Source: Pirellulales bacterium (lineage in GTDB: Bacteria; Planctomycetota; Planctomycetia; Pirellulales; Lacipirellulaceae). From it: a stretch of DNA of 64,000 nucleotides. Shown piece after piece: positions 49,581 through 60,738 of the stretch. The notes under the pieces were generated by a model, which made no database searches, was not told the origin of the DNA, and saw nothing but the letters and a program-made list of their open reading frames with translations. Within the stretch, counting starts at the first letter, position 1, and every line of letters begins with the position of its first letter. The translations under genes and the position numbers were made by a program. The stretch spans positions 186,001 to 250,000 of the forward strand of contig JAHBXQ010000001.1 of NCBI GenBank assembly GCA_019636345.1. Reading direction: 5' to 3'.

Positions 49581-50990
49581 TTACGTCCGCTGGCCGCTGG
49601 GCAGCGAGACGGTGAAGGTCGCCCCCGCGCCTTCGCGGCTGTCGCAGCGAATCGTGCCGCCGTGGGCCTCGACGATCGTCTGGCAGATGCTCAGCCCCAA
49701 GCCCGTGCCGCGGGTCTCATTGCGCTGGCGGGCGCGATCGCCGCGAAAAAACCGCTCAAAGACGCGGGGAACGTCGTCGGCGACGATGCCCGGTCCCGTG
49801 TCGCGGACCTCCAGCACGACGGCTCGTCGCGCCGGGTCGTCGGCGAGCGACACGATCACTTCTTCCCCAATGCGACAGTACTTTACGGCGTTGTCGACCA
49901 GGTTGTTGACGACTTGCCGCAGGTGCTGCTTGTCCCCCGGCACGACGATCCCCTCGGCGATCGACGCCGCGAGCCGCACCCCCTTTTGCTCGGCGACTCC
50001 GTGAAACATCTCGACGCTCTTGGCGACGATCGAACTGAGCGGGGCTTCGCCGCGAACGTCCCGCTCCAGCGCACCGGTCGCTTCGGACAACAGCAGCACC
50101 TGATTGACCAACGTCTCCAGCGAGGCGGTCTCCTCGATCAATTCCTCGAGCAAATGGCGATAGTCGTCCTTCGAGCGATCGGCTCCCAGGGCGACCTCGA
50201 TCGAACTGCGGATCGCCGCGATCGGGGTTCGCAATTCGTGGGCGGCATTGGCCAGGAAGGACCGCTTCTCGGCGAGATACGCTGCGATCCGATCCAGCAG
50301 ACCGTTGATCGTCAGCGCGAGCCGGTCGAACTCGTCATTTGCGCCGTGGTAGGGGAGCCGCTCGTCGAGTCGGGCCGGTCTCAGCCGAGCGGCGGTGGCG
50401 GTCAGCGACTCAAGGTCTTTCGTGGCGATCCCCGCCAGCCAATACCCGCAAAACGGGGCGGCCAGCAGGATCAACGCCGCGATCCCGCCGAGGATCCGAT
50501 CGAGCCTCGACAAGTCCTGGCGGAACATATCGAGCGAGCATCCCAGTTCGACGTCCGCAATTCCCAGCGCATTCGCCGGGGCCGCCGTGCGAGTGACCCG
50601 CAGCGATTCGTGCTCGTCGGCGCCTCGCGAGGGGCGCTCCGCGTTGTTCGATTTCTCGGCTCTCTCGTCCTCGCTGCTCCAAACCGTCCGCCCCTCGACG
50701 TCGGTGAGCGAGACGAACCAGCCGTGCTTCGCGTGCCCGACCGTCTTGCGTCGCAACTCGTCGAGGAGCGACTCGAGATCACCCGCGGGCGTTTCGCGGA
50801 CGGCCAGCTCGATGATGCGGACGTCTTCCTCCAGAATCTGATCGATCTCGCGCAGCAACGTCCACTTCACGGCCTGACGCAAGCCGAGGAGCGCCAGCAG
50901 CGTGATCGCCGCCACCGCCAGCGCGTTCCAGCCGGCGATCCGAAATCGAATCGAGCGGAACAGCGAATGGAGAATGGCGGGAGTCGGCAT
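49581..50990 (-). CDS. sensor histidine kinase (HAMP, HisKA, HATPase)
   Basis: A 469-residue inner membrane kinase. Two transmembrane helices (about 17-40 and 165-190) enclose a periplasmic sensor domain. HAMP follows (about 190-240), then the phospho-acceptor H in NAAHELRTPIAAIR (about 255), the N box VVNNLVDNAVKYC (about 370), and G boxes DTGPGI and GTGLGLSI. The shape matches metal- or stress-sensing kinases that pair with OmpR-type regulators. No regulator is adjacent; a decayed IS66 transposase ends 30 bases upstream of the start. The lone OmpR-type regulator at 60058-60738 on the same strand is a possible former partner. Confidence 0.9.
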   Translation of the reverse strand: MPTPAILHSLFRSIRFRIAGWNALAVAAITLLALLGLRQAVKWTLLREIDQILEEDVRIIELAVRETPAGDLESLLDELRRKTVGHAKHGWFVSLTDVEGRTVWSSEDERAEKSNNAERPSRGADEHESLRVTRTAAPANALGIADVELGCSLDMFRQDLSRLDRILGGIAALILLAAPFCGYWLAGIATKDLESLTATAARLRPARLDERLPYHGANDEFDRLALTINGLLDRIAAYLAEKRSFLANAAHELRTPIAAIRSSIEVALGADRSKDDYRHLLEELIEETASLETLVNQVLLLSEATGALERDVRGEAPLSSIVAKSVEMFHGVAEQKGVRLAASIAEGIVVPGDKQHLRQVVNNLVDNAVKYCRIGEEVIVSLADDPARRAVVLEVRDTGPGIVADDVPRVFERFFRGDRARQRNETRGTGLGLSICQTIVEAHGGTIRCDSREGAGATFTVSLPSGQRT

Positions 50991-51706
50991 GATACGGAGT
51001 CAACCCTCGGAGCAGCCGTTCACGGATTTTGTATCAACAGCGTGTGGAACGGGCGTCTTTGGAAGAGGGCGTGAACGGATTGTTCGAGGAACCGGAAGGC
51101 GGAGCGTCCTCGTTGGTCGCAGGCGGCCGGGACGGTCCAGATGCGTTCGGACCGCCGTTGGCCGGCGTCGTCGCGGGTTCCTCGCGTCAGCTTGCGATCT
51201 TGGGCCGCAAAGCGGAACCGCCGCTCCATCGCGTTGTTCGTCGGCTCTGCACGGGGAGCGCGCGGCGACCCTCGTCGTGGGACGCCGCCAAAGCCGCGCT
51301 CGCCTTTTGCACGACCGTCGCCAATTCGCCCGTGCTGATCGGCGAGCAACGCCGCCAGGCGCGGGCCGATCAGGCCCCCGTGCACGGCCTCGCCAGGCAG
51401 CGGCGCAGCTTCGATGCGGCCGCTCGGCTCATGCCGGTACAACGGCGCACGATGCTCGACGACGTCGTACAGCTGAGCTGGTCGCGGAGCTCGACTTGCT
51501 GCACCACGCGGAACGGGTCGAGGGGATGCCAGCCCTGGACCGGCTTCGACCACTCGCCGGTCCAAGTGCGATCGATCTGTTCGGCGGAAACGGCGCCTAC
51601 TGACGCTCCTGCTCAGCCAGCAGAAGCTCCGGCCGTTCGCAATTCCGACACGCTCCCCGTCGCGATCCCATGATGCGACAAAATATCTCACCGATCCCAA
51701 TTCCTC
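50991..51706. other. 716-base region holding an IS66 remnant
   Basis: The region between the kinase and the endonuclease has no intact gene. Most of it is the transposase remnant listed separately (51020-51600). The last 100 bases show nothing recognisable, and no terminal inverted repeats were found. Confidence 0.6.
51020..51600 (-). pseudogene. IS66-family transposase remnant
   Basis: Several short pieces in different frames match one IS66-type transposase in order: GEWSKPVQGWHPLDPFRVVQ (near 51570-51510), VVEHRAPLYRHEPSGRIEAA with GGLIGPRLAALLADQHG (about 51470-51330), STGELATVVQKASAALAA (about 51330-51270), and the C-terminal EPTNNAMERRFRFAAQDRK with GRSAFRFLEQSVHALF (51246-51020). At least two frameshifts separate them. 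The central catalytic region with the DDE residues is missing between the third and fourth pieces, so the gene is dead. It is fused close to the kinase start, which suggests a deletion or rearrangement here. Confidence 0.75.
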
Positions 51707-53617
51707 CTAAGTCAGTTTCGAAAGCCGAGAACGGCTACGGAGAGGCGAACAACGGCAGGTCGGCGTACGACGGCGGCGACGGGCGGCGAAGGGGGCCAGG
51801 AAGAGGGACAGGGCCGCGAGCGAGAGCGTCGCGGGTTCGGGGACGGCCGCGGCGTGGACCAAGCTGTCCGGGGAGTCGCCGAATTGCGATTGCCATACGA
51901 CCAGATCGTCGGCCGTTACGCTGCCGTCGCCGTTTGCGTCGCCTTGGGCGCGCGTGGCGCCCGCGAGCGTCCCCGCATGGCGCTGCCAGACGAGGAAGTC
52001 GGCGCCGTCGACAAAGCCGTCGTCGGTGAAATCGGCGGAATCCGCGGCGACGACGACTGAGCCGGTCAGCATGAGTTGCATCGTGCCGAGGTTGACGGCG
52101 CCGGGAAGGTTCTCGTCGGAGAAGCTGAACGTGTAGGTCACGGCAAAGTCGCCGACTGCGGCGGGATTCAGCGCGGCGAGGAACGAGCGGTGTTCGCCCG
52201 CGGCGAGCGCAGCGGCGCCGGTGAAGGGGGCGGCGTTGATGGTCAGTGCGGCCGTATCGCCGCTGCCGAAGATCTGATCGAGTTCCAAGGCGGCCGTGTA
52301 GCCGGCGGTCGACGCGAGATTGAAGATGTCGAACGAGAACGTCGGGGCGGGCCCTCCCGCGATGATCGAGCCGAAGTCGTAACTGAGGGCGGTCGTTTGG
52401 GCGAGCCCCTGGAACGACGGCTTCGCGTGGTCGAGCACGGCCAGCGAGATCTGCACCACGTCGTTGGCGTCCTGGGCGCCGCGGCCGAGTCCGGAGCCGG
52501 TCGTGACGTCGAGATTGTCGACCACGACGGTCCCGGACTTCAGTCCGGCGGTCGCCGTGCTGGTGCTCAGCCCGACGGAGATCGAGCGGCTGCCGGCGCC
52601 TCCCGTCGCGAAGGCGTTGTAGCGTCCCGTGACCGAACTGGTCGCGGCGCCGCTGGCGACGACTTCGAAATACGTCCCGGCGGCGCCGGTCTTGTTGAGC
52701 GTGACCGTCTGGGCGGCGGGGGTCGGGGCGCCGACGAGCACCCGTCCCAAATCAACCGCCAACGTCGAACCGCCGTTGCTGCCGAGGGTCGCGCCGGCCA
52801 GCGCGAGTTGGCTGTCGTTGTTCTGGTTGGCGAAGACCGACCATGCGTACTCAGGCCGATCGACGAACGGATTGCGATTGTTCTGGTAGCCGAAGACGGT
52901 TTGGTTGCGGCGGCGTTCAAACTCGTCGGGAGGGACCAGATAGTGCCACTCCAACATGCGCGCCAAGTCGCCCATCGTGGTGCTGGAACCGGTCAGCGCG
53001 GGCGCCCCGTTGACCAGTTCCAGGTTCGTCGTGCTGCCGTCGGACCCGTCGTAGCGCACCGCCATATAAAACGACTGCCGGGCGATCATCCCCGCGTCGG
53101 CGTCGCCGGGGTACCACACTTGGTTGCCGCCGTCGATTTTCACGCCGTACGCCTGTCCGTAGGCGCCGCCGAAGTTGAGGTTGCCGCGATCGTTGTTAAG
53201 TTGCGGATTGCTCGGGCGGAGCATGTGGAGATCGCTCGAATCCGGGCCGCTGGAACCGACCCCGCGGGCCTGCGGCCACACGTGCTCGCGATTCCACGAG
53301 ACGCCGCTGTCCCACCCCGGGATGCTGCCCCCCAGATTGGAAATGTCGAGCGAGACGCGGTTGTAGACCAGGATGATGCGATTGGCGTTGGTCGGATCGC
53401 GATCGGTGACTTGAAGCAACGTGCGCGCAGCATCGTACGAGTGGACCGTGTGCCCGTCGATGATGTCGTGCAGTTGATTCTTGAGCGTAGCGCCTGTGCC
53501 GGTCGCGGTGGAGTAATAGGTCGGCGATGGATCGTACGCGTCGGCCGGCGCGGCTGCCGGCCGGAGCGCGAGCAGCGCGACGACTGCCGCGACGGCGACA
53601 CGAGACAGGAAGATCAT
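51707..53617 (-). CDS. secreted endonuclease I-like nuclease with dockerin-like segment and PEP-CTERM
   Basis: A 636-residue exported protein. The signal peptide ends near APADA (about residue 26). The N-terminal domain (about 30-260) matches the endonuclease I family, a non-specific DNase; WNREHVWPQARGVG holds the catalytic His and SSDLHMLRPSNPQLN the metal-site region. The middle (about 290-540) is beta-rich with choice-of-anchor-like repeats. Next come DFTDDGFVDGADFLVWQRHA and GDANGDGSVTADDLVVWQ, a dockerin-like pair. The VPEPATLSLAALSLFLAPF tail ends in an Arg cluster, but about 20 further residues follow, which is odd for PEP-CTERM. A surface nuclease for nutrient DNA or matrix turnover is inferred. 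The start is set by the signal peptide. Confidence 0.85.
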   Translation of the reverse strand: MIFLSRVAVAAVVALLALRPAAAPADAYDPSPTYYSTATGTGATLKNQLHDIIDGHTVHSYDAARTLLQVTDRDPTNANRIILVYNRVSLDISNLGGSIPGWDSGVSWNREHVWPQARGVGSSGPDSSDLHMLRPSNPQLNNDRGNLNFGGAYGQAYGVKIDGGNQVWYPGDADAGMIARQSFYMAVRYDGSDGSTTNLELVNGAPALTGSSTTMGDLARMLEWHYLVPPDEFERRRNQTVFGYQNNRNPFVDRPEYAWSVFANQNNDSQLALAGATLGSNGGSTLAVDLGRVLVGAPTPAAQTVTLNKTGAAGTYFEVVASGAATSSVTGRYNAFATGGAGSRSISVGLSTSTATAGLKSGTVVVDNLDVTTGSGLGRGAQDANDVVQISLAVLDHAKPSFQGLAQTTALSYDFGSIIAGGPAPTFSFDIFNLASTAGYTAALELDQIFGSGDTAALTINAAPFTGAAALAAGEHRSFLAALNPAAVGDFAVTYTFSFSDENLPGAVNLGTMQLMLTGSVVVAADSADFTDDGFVDGADFLVWQRHAGTLAGATRAQGDANGDGSVTADDLVVWQSQFGDSPDSLVHAAAVPEPATLSLAALSLFLAPFAARRRRRTPTCRCSPLRSRSRLSKLT

Positions 53618-53899
53618 GCGGCGGGGCAAGGCGGGGCGACGCGAAGGGGCGATTGGGGCGGCTTGAGACGCCCGCGCGGGGCGATGCCGAGAGGCGGTCA
53701 CGATGCACCTATCCTAAGCACCCGCGGCAAATCCCGCCACGACTGGGAACGGGGCGGAATTCCGCAATAATAGGAGCGCCTCGCCCGGAGGATGCCAATC
53801 GGCCCGCGAATGGCGCGAATCGATGCGATTTCGGTCGGCCGCGACTCGCGACATTCGCGGGCCGATCACGCCCTCGGGTTACGGAAACCGGGATCCAGC

Positions 53900-56224
<2,325 letters not shown>

Positions 56225-56351
56225 GGGTGGAGAGGTCGGAGGTCGGCGGAAACGGGGAGGGCAGGGGGGCTGAGCGTGCGTCGCAAGTCGCGGCGTCCCC
56301 GCCGGCGGCGCGGGTGCGAACAACGGTAGTGACGCCATTTGCCAAATTGAC

Positions 56352-56432
56352 GGGTGGCTGGGGTCGAACGAAGTGAGCCCCCAGCGGATTCCCTGGGGGC
56401 TTCGTTGCACTGCGACCCCAGGCGCCCATCCA
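56352..56432. repeat. REP-like imperfect palindrome, about 80 bases
   Basis: The left arm GGGTGGCTGGGGTCGAACGA pairs imperfectly with TGCGACCCCAGGCGCCCATCC on the right, and the inner AGCCCCCAG pairs with CTGGGGGCT. It has the size and composition of a REP or small MITE. Other copies would be needed to prove it. Confidence 0.6.
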
Positions 56433-56469
56433 AGGGCGCAAATGGTATCACTGCCCGAACAACCTGCAC

Positions 56470-56499
56470 TTGGACGCCCCGGCGCCGCAGCCCTAGAAT
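56470..56499 (+). promoter_or_regulatory. possible promoter of the heme-motif histidine kinase
   Basis: TTGGAC and TAGAAT are 18 bases apart. Transcription would start about 60 bases before the ATG at 56569. Confidence 0.4.
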
Positions 56500-56568
56500 A
56501 ACGGGTCGTCGCCGCAAACTCCCCCTGCCCGCAAGTTCCCGAGAAACTTGCCCCTCTGCCGTCTCGCC

Positions 56569-58422
56569 ATGAGCTACACCGGTCTCAAACGCGTGCTCGG
56601 CGAGACGAATCTCGAGCGGAAGTGCCGGCTGCTCTTCGGCACGTGCCTGTTGATCCTCATCACCAGCAGCTTCTGGTGGTACGGCGCGCGGACCGATCGG
56701 ATCGTGTTCGAGACGAACTCGTTCGTCGCGCGAATTCTCGTGAACCAGTCGCTGATGAAGGAACACATGAACGTGTTCCAGACGCGGCTGACTCCGCAAG
56801 CGAATCTGCAGGTCTCGGAGATCGACAAACACACGAACGCCGCCCTCGCACGGCTGCTGAGCACCAAAGATTTCGAATGGCAGATCCTCCATCCCGAGAA
56901 CGAGCGGAACATCGGCCGGCCGACCAGCAATTTCGAGTGGGAGTTGATGCTCCGCTGGCAGCGTCTGGGGGAAACGCTCAAGACCGACAAAGACATCGAC
57001 GAGGCCGAGCACACTGACGAAACTTGGGCGCAAGCCAATATCGTGAAGAAGATCGAGCCGGAGGACGGCGTCGCCGAGGTGAGCGACGCCGCCAAGAGCG
57101 AGCCGCGCGAGCGCAACTACTACCGTTATTACCAGCCGCTGTTCGCCCGCCAGGGATGCGTGGACTGCCACAAAGTCCAGCTGACCGACACGTACCCTGC
57201 GTGGCCGAACATGAAGGCGGGCGATTTGCTGGCGGTCATTCGCGTCGATCTGGACATGGATCGCACGCTCAAGAAGCAGGCGAAGAACCGTTCGCTGCTG
57301 CTGTTCTCGGCGATCGTCACCGTGGCGCTGGCGATGGCCGCGTTGTACGCGATCGTTCGCTACGTGATCGTCAAGCCGCTCAAGCATCTGCGCGACGTCA
57401 GCAACGCGGTCCGCCGCGGCGAGGTCGAGACGCGGGCCGTCATCCAAACGGGAGACGAATTCGAGGAGCTCGGCGCCGCGTTCAATCGCATGTTGCGACA
57501 ACTGCTGCGGCAGCAGGACGAGCTGCGCGCCGTGAACGGCGAGCTCGACGGCAAAATCGACGAACTCGCCCAGGTGAACATGCGCCTGTACGAGATGAAC
57601 CAGATTAAGAGCGACTTCCTGGCCACCGTCAGCCACGAGCTGCGCACGCCGCTCAACAGCATCATCGGGTTCAGCGATCTGCTGGCCAACATCGCCACGC
57701 TCGACGAGAAACAGCGGCGTTTCGCCGGCAACATCGAACGCTCCGGGAAGCAACTGCTCGAGATGATCAACGACATTCTCGATCTGGCCAAGATCGAGAG
57801 CGGCCGCATGGAAATCCGCGCGACCGAATTCGACATCGGGTCGGTCGTGTTGATGCAGTGCGACATGGCCCGCCCCTTGAGCGAACGCAAGCGGATCGAT
57901 CTCGATTGCGAGGTCGCCCCCGGGCTGCCGCTCATGAAGCAGGACCGCGGCAAGATCGAGCAGGTGCTCAATAATTTGCTGTCAAACGCGATCAAGTTCA
58001 CCCCCGACGGCGGGCAGATCCAAGTCTCCGCTCGCCAGGACGAATCGGGGGATTTGCGCCTGACGGTCGCCGACACGGGGGTCGGCATCAGCGAGGCGGA
58101 CCAGACCGTCATCTTCGAAAAGTTTCGGCAGGGAAGCGTTGTGCAGCCCTCCGGCAGCGCGATGACTCGCGAGTTTTCCGGGACGGGGCTCGGGCTGTCG
58201 ATCGTCCGCGAAATGTGCCGCCTGCTGGGGGGGGACGTCACCGTGACCAGCGAACTGGGCCGCGGCAGCGAGTTCGTCGTGCTGCTCCCCTGGCACGCCC
58301 CGGCGCCGATGCGGTTCGAGTCCCCGATCGCCGAGGAACTGCGCCAGCTGACCAAGCACCGCCCCGACTTGGCCGAGCTCCGCGCCATCGGCGGCAACGG
58401 GGCGACGGGGAGCAGGTTCTAG
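56569..58422 (+). CDS. sensor histidine kinase with periplasmic c-type heme motif
   Basis: A 617-residue kinase. Helix 1 is at about 20-42, a periplasmic domain at about 43-240, helix 2 at about 242-265, then HAMP (about 265-320). HisKA has SHELRTPLNSIIGFSDLL with the phospho-acceptor His at 356, and HATPase has NNLLSNAIKFTPDGG and GTGLGLSIV. The periplasmic domain resembles the DUF3365/Tll0287 type and contains QGCVDCHKVQ: CxxCH at 197-201, a covalent heme c site. The protein could sense redox, oxygen or NO. The heme iron's second ligand is not identifiable. No response regulator is adjacent. The ATG at 56569 is the start; an upstream ATG at 56548 is less likely. Confidence 0.9.
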   Translation: MSYTGLKRVLGETNLERKCRLLFGTCLLILITSSFWWYGARTDRIVFETNSFVARILVNQSLMKEHMNVFQTRLTPQANLQVSEIDKHTNAALARLLSTKDFEWQILHPENERNIGRPTSNFEWELMLRWQRLGETLKTDKDIDEAEHTDETWAQANIVKKIEPEDGVAEVSDAAKSEPRERNYYRYYQPLFARQGCVDCHKVQLTDTYPAWPNMKAGDLLAVIRVDLDMDRTLKKQAKNRSLLLFSAIVTVALAMAALYAIVRYVIVKPLKHLRDVSNAVRRGEVETRAVIQTGDEFEELGAAFNRMLRQLLRQQDELRAVNGELDGKIDELAQVNMRLYEMNQIKSDFLATVSHELRTPLNSIIGFSDLLANIATLDEKQRRFAGNIERSGKQLLEMINDILDLAKIESGRMEIRATEFDIGSVVLMQCDMARPLSERKRIDLDCEVAPGLPLMKQDRGKIEQVLNNLLSNAIKFTPDGGQIQVSARQDESGDLRLTVADTGVGISEADQTVIFEKFRQGSVVQPSGSAMTREFSGTGLGLSIVREMCRLLGGDVTVTSELGRGSEFVVLLPWHAPAPMRFESPIAEELRQLTKHRPDLAELRAIGGNGATGSRF

Positions 58423-58562
58423 AACACGGGGGAAGGCAATACGGGGATTGTCGTCGATTCCCGCGAGCAAGCCGATTGCCACGAAGCTCGCTTGGCCGTA
58501 TCCTCTCCCCCCTCCGCCACGTCCCCTCCGCCTTGTCCTGCCGGACGCGCTTCGCACCCCCC

Positions 58563-59033
58563 ATGCCCGACTCCTCCTCCGCCGCTCCCGTGGTTCACCT
58601 CTACACCGACGGCGGTTGCAGCGGCAATCCGGGGCCGGGAGGCTGGGCGTTCGTTCTCAAGCACCCGGCCTCGGGCAAGTCGATCGAACGGAGCGGCGGC
58701 GAACGCGACACGACCAACAATCAAATGGAGCTGATGGCCGTGATCGCGGGGTTGGAGACGCTCAAACGTCGCTCGCGGGTCGAGCTGTTCACCGACAGCG
58801 TCTACGTCGGCAAGGGGATCAGCGAGTGGATGCCCAAGTGGAAAGCCAACGGTTGGCGCCGCAAGGAGGGGTCGAAGCTGGTCCCCGTGAAGAACGAAGA
58901 CCTCTGGCGACGGCTGGACGCGCTGTTGGCCAAGCACCACGTGAAATACACCCGCGTCGCCGGCCACAGCGGCCACCCCGAAAACGACCGCTGCGACGAA
59001 CTGGCCGTGGCCGCGTATCAGAAATACCTGTAG
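58563..59033 (+). CDS. rnhA: ribonuclease HI
   Basis: A 156-residue enzyme that cuts RNA in RNA-DNA hybrids. The four catalytic carboxylates are visible: YTDGGCSGNPGPGGW (Asp), NNQMELMAV (Glu), TDSVYVGKGI (Asp) and HPENDRCDELA (Asp). The length equals E. coli RNase HI. The ATG at 58563 is the only sensible start. It follows the kinase gene by 140 bases on the same strand. Confidence 0.95.
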   Translation: MPDSSSAAPVVHLYTDGGCSGNPGPGGWAFVLKHPASGKSIERSGGERDTTNNQMELMAVIAGLETLKRRSRVELFTDSVYVGKGISEWMPKWKANGWRRKEGSKLVPVKNEDLWRRLDALLAKHHVKYTRVAGHSGHPENDRCDELAVAAYQKYL

Positions 59034-59088
59034 CTCAGGCCTTCCCGATGCGAGCGGCGCCCCGTCGGTCCCGACGATCGCAGCTCGC

Positions 59089-59502
59089 TCACCCCTCGTC
59101 CGCCGGTCCGACCCAAAAGTGCGGATTGTACGCCACCTCCCACAGGTGGCCGTCGAGATCCTGGAAGTAACCGCTGTAGCCGCCCCACGACGCCTGCTGC
59201 GGCGGTTTGACGATGGTCGCCCCGGCCCGCGCCGCCTCGGCGATCACGGCGTCGACCTCGGCTTTGCTGGCGACGTTGTGGGCCAGGGCGACTCCCCCAA
59301 ATCCCCGCCCTTCGGCCGGCACTGTCGCGTCCTCGGCCAGCGCCTCGCGCCCGTAGAGCGCCAGCCACGTTCCGTTGAGCGTGAAGAACGCCACCTCCGG
59401 CGGCGACTCCATTCGCGGCAGGCCGAGCCCTTCTTCGTAAAACGTCACGGCCGCGGGCAGGTCGCGCACGCCGAGCGTGATCATGCTGATGCGGGATTTC
59501 AT
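59089..59502 (-). CDS. VOC-superfamily (glyoxalase-like) protein
   Basis: A 137-residue single-domain VOC protein. ITLGVRDLPAAVTFYEEGLG is the first beta-alpha-beta unit, and YFQDLDGHLWEVAYNP near the end gives the second unit with metal-site residues. Family members act on metabolites or toxins, or bind drugs, so the function is not predictable. The ATG at 59502 begins at the fold; the frame extends to 59763 without family sequence. It converges with rnhA, 55 bases apart. Confidence 0.85.
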   Translation of the reverse strand: MKSRISMITLGVRDLPAAVTFYEEGLGLPRMESPPEVAFFTLNGTWLALYGREALAEDATVPAEGRGFGGVALAHNVASKAEVDAVIAEAARAGATIVKPPQQASWGGYSGYFQDLDGHLWEVAYNPHFWVGPADEG

Positions 59503-60057: not shown

Positions 60058-60738
60058 TCAAGCGTTCGCCGCGGCTCGCAGCACGTAGCCCCGTCCGCGA
60101 ACGGTGTGCAGCAACTGTTCGTCGAAGCCCCGGTCGATTTTGCCGCGGAGGCGGTTCACGTGGACCTCGATCACGTTGGTGACCCCTTCCCAATCGGCGT
60201 CCCACAGATGCTCGCACAGCATCTTGCGCGTCACCACCTGGCCGGCGTGCCGCATCAGGAACTCCAGCAGGCTGAACTCAGTCGGCGTGAGCACGATCTC
60301 GACCTCGTCCCGCGTCACGCGCCGCACCGCCAGATCGAGCGACAGCGGCCCGACCTCGCTCCGTTGGGCGGTGACGTGCAGCGACCGGCGCGCGACGGCC
60401 TGCAGCCGGGCCAGCAGCTCGGCGAACGCGAATGGCTTGACGAGATAGTCGTCGGCCCCTGCTTCGAGTCCTGCGACTCGCTCTTCGACCGATCCCAGCG
60501 CGCTGACGACGATTACGGGCGTCTTGACCCCTTGGGCCCGCGCTTGGGAGAGGACTTCGAGCCCCGGCACGCCCGGCAGCATGAGGTCGAGCAGGATCGC
60601 GTCGGCCGACTGGGCCAGCGCTTCCTTAAGCCCGCGTTCGCCGCCGCGAGTCCAGGTGCAATCGTGTCCCGCTTCGAGCAGTCCTTGCTGCATCGCTTTG
60701 CCGAGGACGGGGTCGTCTTCGATGACCAGCACGTTCAT
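60058..60738 (-). CDS. OmpR-family response regulator
   Basis: A 226-residue regulator. The receiver domain (1-118) has EDDP at 7-10, the phospho-acceptor Asp in LLDLMLPGVPG (about 51) and the Lys in DDYLVKPFAF (about 101). The winged-helix domain (about 130-222) has LTPTEFSLLEFLMRHAGQVV and VIEVHVNRLRGKID. The layout matches regulators that pair with HAMP kinases. No kinase follows it: the bases after the stop hold no gene for 550 bases. The kinase at 49581-50990 is a candidate. Confidence 0.93.
   Translation of the reverse strand: MNVLVIEDDPVLGKAMQQGLLEAGHDCTWTRGGERGLKEALAQSADAILLDLMLPGVPGLEVLSQARAQGVKTPVIVVSALGSVEERVAGLEAGADDYLVKPFAFAELLARLQAVARRSLHVTAQRSEVGPLSLDLAVRRVTRDEVEIVLTPTEFSLLEFLMRHAGQVVTRKMLCEHLWDADWEGVTNVIEVHVNRLRGKIDRGFDEQLLHTVRGRGYVLRAAANA

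Follow-up and report, generated by a model that had tools for sequence, protein, structure and literature searches.

A planctomycete sensor histidine kinase with a predicted periplasmic heme c Cache domain and a candidate second histidine ligand

A 617-residue planctomycete sensor histidine kinase is, on balance, likely to be an inner-membrane sensor of the sCache_heme type, in which a bis-His heme c would serve as a redox or NO switch that acts through a membrane-spanning helix on a genetically unlinked response regulator. Its gene lies in the window, by which we mean the whole stretch of 64,000 nucleotides that was analysed. Domain order, topology, invariant residues, predicted fold and maturase genes were computed.

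The domain family was defined in a preprint by Deshpande et al. (2026; PMC12889525), in which DUF3365/Tll0287 domains are described as heme c Cache domains, termed sCache_heme, and fusions to HisKA/HATPase are named in the legend of Figure 2. The sequence-only reading had called planctomycete heme sensors poorly described. This no longer holds for the domain family, described in PMC12889525. Planctomycetes go unmentioned in the main text of that preprint, and the matches listed for the open-licence literature include no further paper about a kinase of this type from planctomycetes. The newly defined sensor family is now tied to a bacterial class absent from the main text of its describing paper. 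What appears to be new is an orphan kinase kept in Planctomycetia, often between priA and rnhA, whose otherwise divergent periplasmic domains share an invariant His66, the motif residues and Tyr187, together with shifts in the spacing of the motif. Neither His66 nor the priA/rnhA setting nor the CX3CH orthologues had been named in the sequence-only reading.

Gene, domains and membrane topology

The reading frame opens at the ATG at 56569, whose alignment column holds Met in 47 of 51 aligned members. As had been read from the letters alone, it combines a CxxCH at residues 197-201 with full HAMP, HisKA and HATPase domains, on which the open reading frame and Pfam agree. The features of the gene are the following.

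56569..58422, + strand: sensor histidine kinase, whole gene (ORF and translation, Pfam)
56623..56691, + strand: membrane helix 1, about residues 19-41 (hydropathy; model helix 14-71)
56692..57288, + strand: periplasmic sCache_heme (Tll0287-like/DUF3365) domain, residues 42-240 (Pfam PF11845, models, structural matches 5B82, 3B42 and 3B47)
56764..56766, + strand: His66, proposed distal heme ligand (inferred from column conservation)
57127..57129, + strand: Tyr187 (same residue in 67 of 67 periplasmic domains)
57157..57171, + strand: putative heme attachment motif C197-V-D-C200-H201, CVDCH (sequence, alignment)
57289..57357, + strand: membrane helix 2, about residues 241-263 (hydropathy)
57364..57507, + strand: HAMP domain, residues 266-313 (Pfam, well above cut-off)
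57607..57804, + strand: HisKA domain, residues 347-412, with phospho-acceptor His356 in SHELRTP at 57634-57636 (Pfam, well above cut-off; alignment)
57943..58290, + strand: HATPase_c domain, residues 459-574 (Pfam, well above cut-off)

The HisKA phospho-acceptor His and the N, G1 and G2 boxes were found in the window kinase, and 50 of the 51 aligned members have all four catalytic kinase motifs, the exception (L007) being a 353-residue frame cut at a contig end. Hydropathy shows that residues 42-240, motif included, are bracketed by two hydrophobic stretches. Because the kinase part is cytoplasmic and the motif sits between two membrane helices, the CxxCH loop is placed outside the cytoplasm; hydropathy and domain order thus agree with the periplasmic location claimed earlier, and not with the cytoplasmic one that had been named as its refutation. 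For a protein of this composition, chance alone would give about 0.001 CxxCH motifs. No Rfam match was found within 55900-59400, and 56100-58700 contains two promoter-like matches (56471-56499 and 58476-58504), where 0.3 are expected.

Evidence for a heme c Cache domain

The Pfam model PF11845 (Tll0287-like/DUF3365) matches the window kinase weakly, at 25.6-27.5 bits against a curated cut-off of 24.1, and it matches 35 of 37 sampled members at E <= 0.01. The window kinase is the sole match reported for PF11845 in a search of the source genome, though it is absent from a 148-genome search with the same model at E 1e-3. AlphaFold2 models built from the window kinase and 66 relatives have a mean pLDDT of 85.9 for residues 1-345 and of 87.3 for residues 42-240. 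In the models, a long helix (residues 14-71) crosses the membrane and runs on to His66, and the CxxCH lies in a short helix (195-201) flanked by strands 180-192 and 220-229, which is the topology given for sCache_heme in PMC12889525, a CXXCH helix between two strands.

Structural comparison was carried out with two programs. Foldseek returned no match in the PDB at E <= 0.001 with either model, and Tll0287 (5B82) was not among the matches listed. VIA-align placed 5B82 second for the 1-345 model, with Z 8.1 (137 residues, rmsd 5.2), after an integrative WalK-YycH model, and first for the 42-240 model, with Z 7.6 (125 residues, rmsd 4.1). The Geobacter chemoreceptor domains scored lower, with Z 5.6 and 5.8 for GSU0935 (3B42) and Z 5.5 and 5.6 for GSU0582 (3B47). 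With the domain model, heme-free Cache domains tie with 5B82, the sCache domain of WalK (4YWZ) reaching Z 7.4 and PhoQ and DcuS also following below 5B82; WalK shares the Cache fold, but in PMC12889525 it is a domain without the heme insertion. Since unrelated chains reach Z 7.0 with the 1-345 model, middling Z values being common, the VIA-align values alone prove little. A profile search against PDB sequences also gave 5B82 as its best match (E 4.8e-4), with the motif aligned to the CLACH of that protein. Taken together, the VIA-align matches, the match to PF11845 and the profile hit on 5B82 support membership in sCache_heme, and the window protein fits this family in every respect that computation could check.

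The resemblance can be stated more closely. With the sCache_heme proteins, including the signalling-type WP_033902098 of PMC12889525, the window kinase shares an extracytoplasmic Cache fold, a CxxCH helix between strands, two membrane helices and a HAMP domain. With Tll0287 it shares the fold and the position of the motif, whereas Tll0287 is a stand-alone protein with His/Cys ligation. With GSU0582 and GSU0935 it shares a periplasmic domain of the heme c type between membrane helices and ahead of HAMP; those two receptors differ in their chemotaxis output, their His/water or His/Met ligation and their helix-swapped crystal dimers, as described in PMC8396549.

The source genome (5.18 Mb in 15 contigs, 95.9% complete) was also searched for cytochrome c maturation genes, as the sequence-only reading had advised, and both ResB and CcsA matches were found. 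A CcsA-type domain (PF01578, 77 bits) and a ResB-type domain (PF05140, 43 bits) occur in one open frame of 1217 residues on contig 9, which may be read from its sequence as a System II synthetase. The earlier proposal of a DUF3365-like sensor domain that carries a c-type heme and feeds a kinase thus gains support from family, predicted fold, invariance and maturation genes, and a covalent heme in the window kinase is very likely.

His66 as a candidate distal ligand

Across 67 periplasmic domains, in which mean column identity is 20% and the commonest residue has a median share of 34%, only H66, Y187, C197, C200 and H201 are invariant. The column of His66 holds His in 51 of 51, 67 of 67 and 130 of 130 members of three overlapping sets, and again in all of 20 further divergent members, taken from genomes with a weak BLAST match or none. 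The resulting 150 of 150 (130 plus 20) comes from sets gathered by similarity, whose members share history and are therefore not independent draws; the 130 were obtained from 180 loci by removing exact copies over a 150-residue stretch, and at 90% identity the 150 form 135 clusters. Fourteen of 15 stretches from other classes of planctomycetes could be matched, with His at this column in 8 of the 14 and S, N, G, S, R or E in the other six. When the unaligned N-terminal stretches of other Tll0287-like proteins of the phylum were inspected by eye, no His was apparent at the corresponding place.

The only cysteines in the periplasmic domain of the window kinase are C197 and C200, so that a distal Cys of the Tll0287 type is lacking. 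The end points of the two 5B82 alignments give offsets of 20 and 16 near the N-terminal helix, and if this helix is aligned gap-free, His66 falls on residue 46 of 5B82 or no more than about one helical turn away from it. Cys46 is what we take to be the distal heme ligand of Tll0287. Counted along the printed alignment, the motif His of 5B82 is residue 145, which agrees with the ligand pair His145/Cys46 that we take for this protein. The text of PMC12889525 states Cys/His ligation for Tll0287 and gives no residue numbers with it. For the Geobacter proteins, PMC8396549 describes Met60 as the distal ligand in one of the two hemes of the GSU0935 crystal and water as the distal ligand in GSU0582; from that description we infer that Met60 lies on an N-terminal helix. 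A distal Cys, Met or invariant His in different branches is the pattern that one would expect of a heme ligand. Thus, unlike in the solved relatives, His66 is probably the distal ligand of a bis-His heme, and it is a concrete candidate for the residue through which a heme in the periplasm could exert force on a membrane helix.

Proposed mechanism and competing explanations

From the computed features we infer the heme itself, its ligation by His66, the signal, the direction of switching and the partner. One heme c would be attached to each periplasmic Cache domain through Cys197 and Cys200, with His201 as the proximal ligand, and His66, on the helix that continues from membrane helix 1, would be the distal one, giving a six-coordinate bis-His heme at rest. 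A change in the redox state of the heme, or the displacement of His66 by a small ligand such as NO, would then loosen or restore the bond that joins the heme to the N-terminal helix, which would shift helix 1 relative to helix 2. The HAMP domain would relay this shift to the HisKA/HATPase core, and the core would phosphorylate an unlinked response regulator. The nearest precedent is the redox-linked exchange of the distal ligand that is proposed for GSU0582 and GSU0935 in PMC8396549.

The signal is far likelier to be redox or NO than O2. An oxygen sensor of the FixL/DosP type would fit the heme kinase architecture, and many planctomycetes are aerobic, but the sensor domain here is of the c type, extracytoplasmic and a Cache domain. 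The family members tested in PMC12889525, moreover, form no stable O2 complex, which leaves this explanation highly improbable. Of the redox, oxygen and NO sensing suggested earlier, redox and NO are therefore plausible by analogy with those proteins, and oxygen is less so.

An alternative within NO sensing is a distal site that is open or bound by water, His66 being kept for another role, e.g., as a pocket or hinge residue. The model for this would be the signalling-type protein of P. azotoformans (WP_033902098), which is without an axial Cys and may bind water according to PMC12889525. Of the two Pseudomonas proteins described there, the signalling-type binds NO tightly, with a koff of about 6e-4 per s and without a stable O2 complex, and the stand-alone one releases NO rapidly. 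The six of 14 relatives from other classes that have no His at this column also speak for such a site rather than for bis-His ligation. However, His66 is conserved in every one of the 150 members and in the other eight of these 14 relatives, only four other residues are invariant, and the solved relatives have a distal Cys (PMC12889525) or Met (PMC8396549), so that we regard an open-site NO sensor as unlikely. A further alternative dispenses with heme: within the same Cache domain, Cys197, Cys200, His201 and His66 would bind a metal (e.g., Zn) or act as a thiol redox switch. Four invariant Cys and His residues would suit a metal site, and a metal knuckle would more easily tolerate the x2, x3 and x4 spacings that occur among the relatives. 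The homology to heme c domains of solved structure argues against it, as do the exact CxxCH kept in 123 of the 150 members and the maturase in the genome, and this explanation appears quite improbable. The bis-His heme c switch is accordingly the reading retained here.

Variation in the spacing of the motif

At the place of the motif, all 130 relatives have two Cys and a following His (104 with x2, 25 with x3 and one with x4), and with the 20 divergent members included, the 150 comprise 123 CX2CH, 26 CX3CH and one CX4CH, the motif being missing in none. The 27 spacing variants are found in 24 of the 135 clusters; CX3CH orthologues include L031, L034, L057-L059, L062, L072 and L131 (Singulisphaera sp. 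GP187), among others, and the CX4CH one is L097. These longer spacings are less common in heme c proteins, which weighs against the heme reading. A loss of heme among relatives was considered for nine of 70 loci (from seven genomes, two of them represented twice) whose kinase frame has no CxxCH, and was rejected, all nine having CX3CH.

In the family at large, CXXCH is found in 99% of sCache_heme proteins according to PMC12889525. With 27 variants in 150, the planctomycete branch departs from this family rule, and it differs from sCache_heme at large in its invariant His66 as well. In a quick IQ-TREE run on 128 rows of the kinase core, with the motif left out, the best topology requires eight spacing changes, of which well-supported branches force three; a claim of at least eight changes was therefore dropped. 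Three of the changes on the tree may instead represent one gain and two losses.

CX3CH is counted as a heme motif in the text of one genome survey, and structural proof of a CX3CH heme was not found among the literature matches listed. Heme counts that search for CXXCH alone would miss the CX3CH and CX4CH orthologues, and the changes between CX2CH and CX3CH within one orthologous kinase amount to a natural test of how much latitude heme c attachment allows. A wider reading is tentative and somewhat less probable than not: a class-wide planctomycete redox/NO sensor, with a two-His heme c of which one His sits on the signalling helix, so that the bond from the iron to a transmembrane lever would switch, and with natural CX3CH/CX4CH attachment that has changed more than once.

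Distribution and genomic context

Residues 1-274 match 268 of 296 genomes of the order of the window organism at E <= 0.001. A second search, with profile A3, covered 33 genomes (20 listed of the 28 without a first match, 12 chosen weak ones and G558) and matched 23. Loci from 20 of these 23 (one each) all have the motif and His66, the other three matches being weak or partial; the ten genomes without an A3 match include three with a completeness of 90% or more and a contamination of 5% or less. Outside the order, 27 of 28 listed genomes of the same class match. Across the phylum, 106 of the 392 genomes searched with a profile matched at E <= 0.001; all matches with E < 1e-21 lie in the class of the window organism, and other classes gave weaker ones. 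The best 80 of 422 related genome stretches comprise 78 labelled as planctomycete and two labelled only 'bacterium', and include Lacipirellula limnantheis (L079), Bythopirellula polymerisocia (L083), Blastopirellula marina (L119) and Singulisphaera (L131). Eight loci from other planctomycete classes (L235-L240, L246 and L248) have a similar N-terminus (e.g., SLAEKCRL), the distal His and CX2CH, with CX4CH in L246; judged by sequence, they could be a sister family.

Three neighbouring genes bear on the context of the kinase.

53792..56224, + strand: priA, upstream neighbour (Pfam; conserved context)
58563..59033, + strand: rnhA (RNase HI gene), downstream neighbour (Pfam; conserved context)
60058-60738, - strand: OmpR-type response regulator (receiver profile; best NCBIfam model heavy-metal CztR/SilR/CopR, below cut-off)

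Among 40 loci (L035-L074; up to 19 kb, some cut by contig ends), the gene immediately upstream of the kinase and on its strand is priA in 32 (midpoints within 3.5 kb), and the one immediately downstream, also on its strand, is rnhA in 34 (midpoints within 2.2 kb), the kinase lying between the two in 30. The link to priA and rnhA may be one of conserved gene order only.

The statement that no response regulator is adjacent proved right in the strict sense. No receiver gene was found in the window other than the regulator at 60058-60738, which lies about 1.6 kb from the kinase, on the other strand and beyond both the RNase HI gene and a gene of the glyoxalase family; no kinase gene was seen beside this regulator. 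A search for a cognate regulator near the kinase gave a receiver ORF in two of 120 loci (L035-L154), L036 and L076, which are the same contig of one genome; these 120 loci overlap in part and include many short contigs, and the profile was seeded with a single OmpR-type receiver, that of the window's own regulator, so that more distant receivers may have escaped it. In the only genome of the same genus, represented by the 8.3-kb contig L035, no receiver was found. With a receiver gene nearby in two of the 120 loci, the kinase is therefore taken to be a conserved orphan of Planctomycetia. The source genome has 35 receiver matches (34 over the cut-off) and 17 HisKA matches (16 over the cut-off). 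Upstream of priA, the window also contains, on the - strand, a second histidine kinase at 49584-50999, with HAMP, HisKA and HATPase and without an adjoining receiver gene, and a frame at 51707-53701 that resembles, by eye, a secreted endonuclease I-like protein carrying dockerin-like repeats and ending in a PEP-CTERM-like segment.
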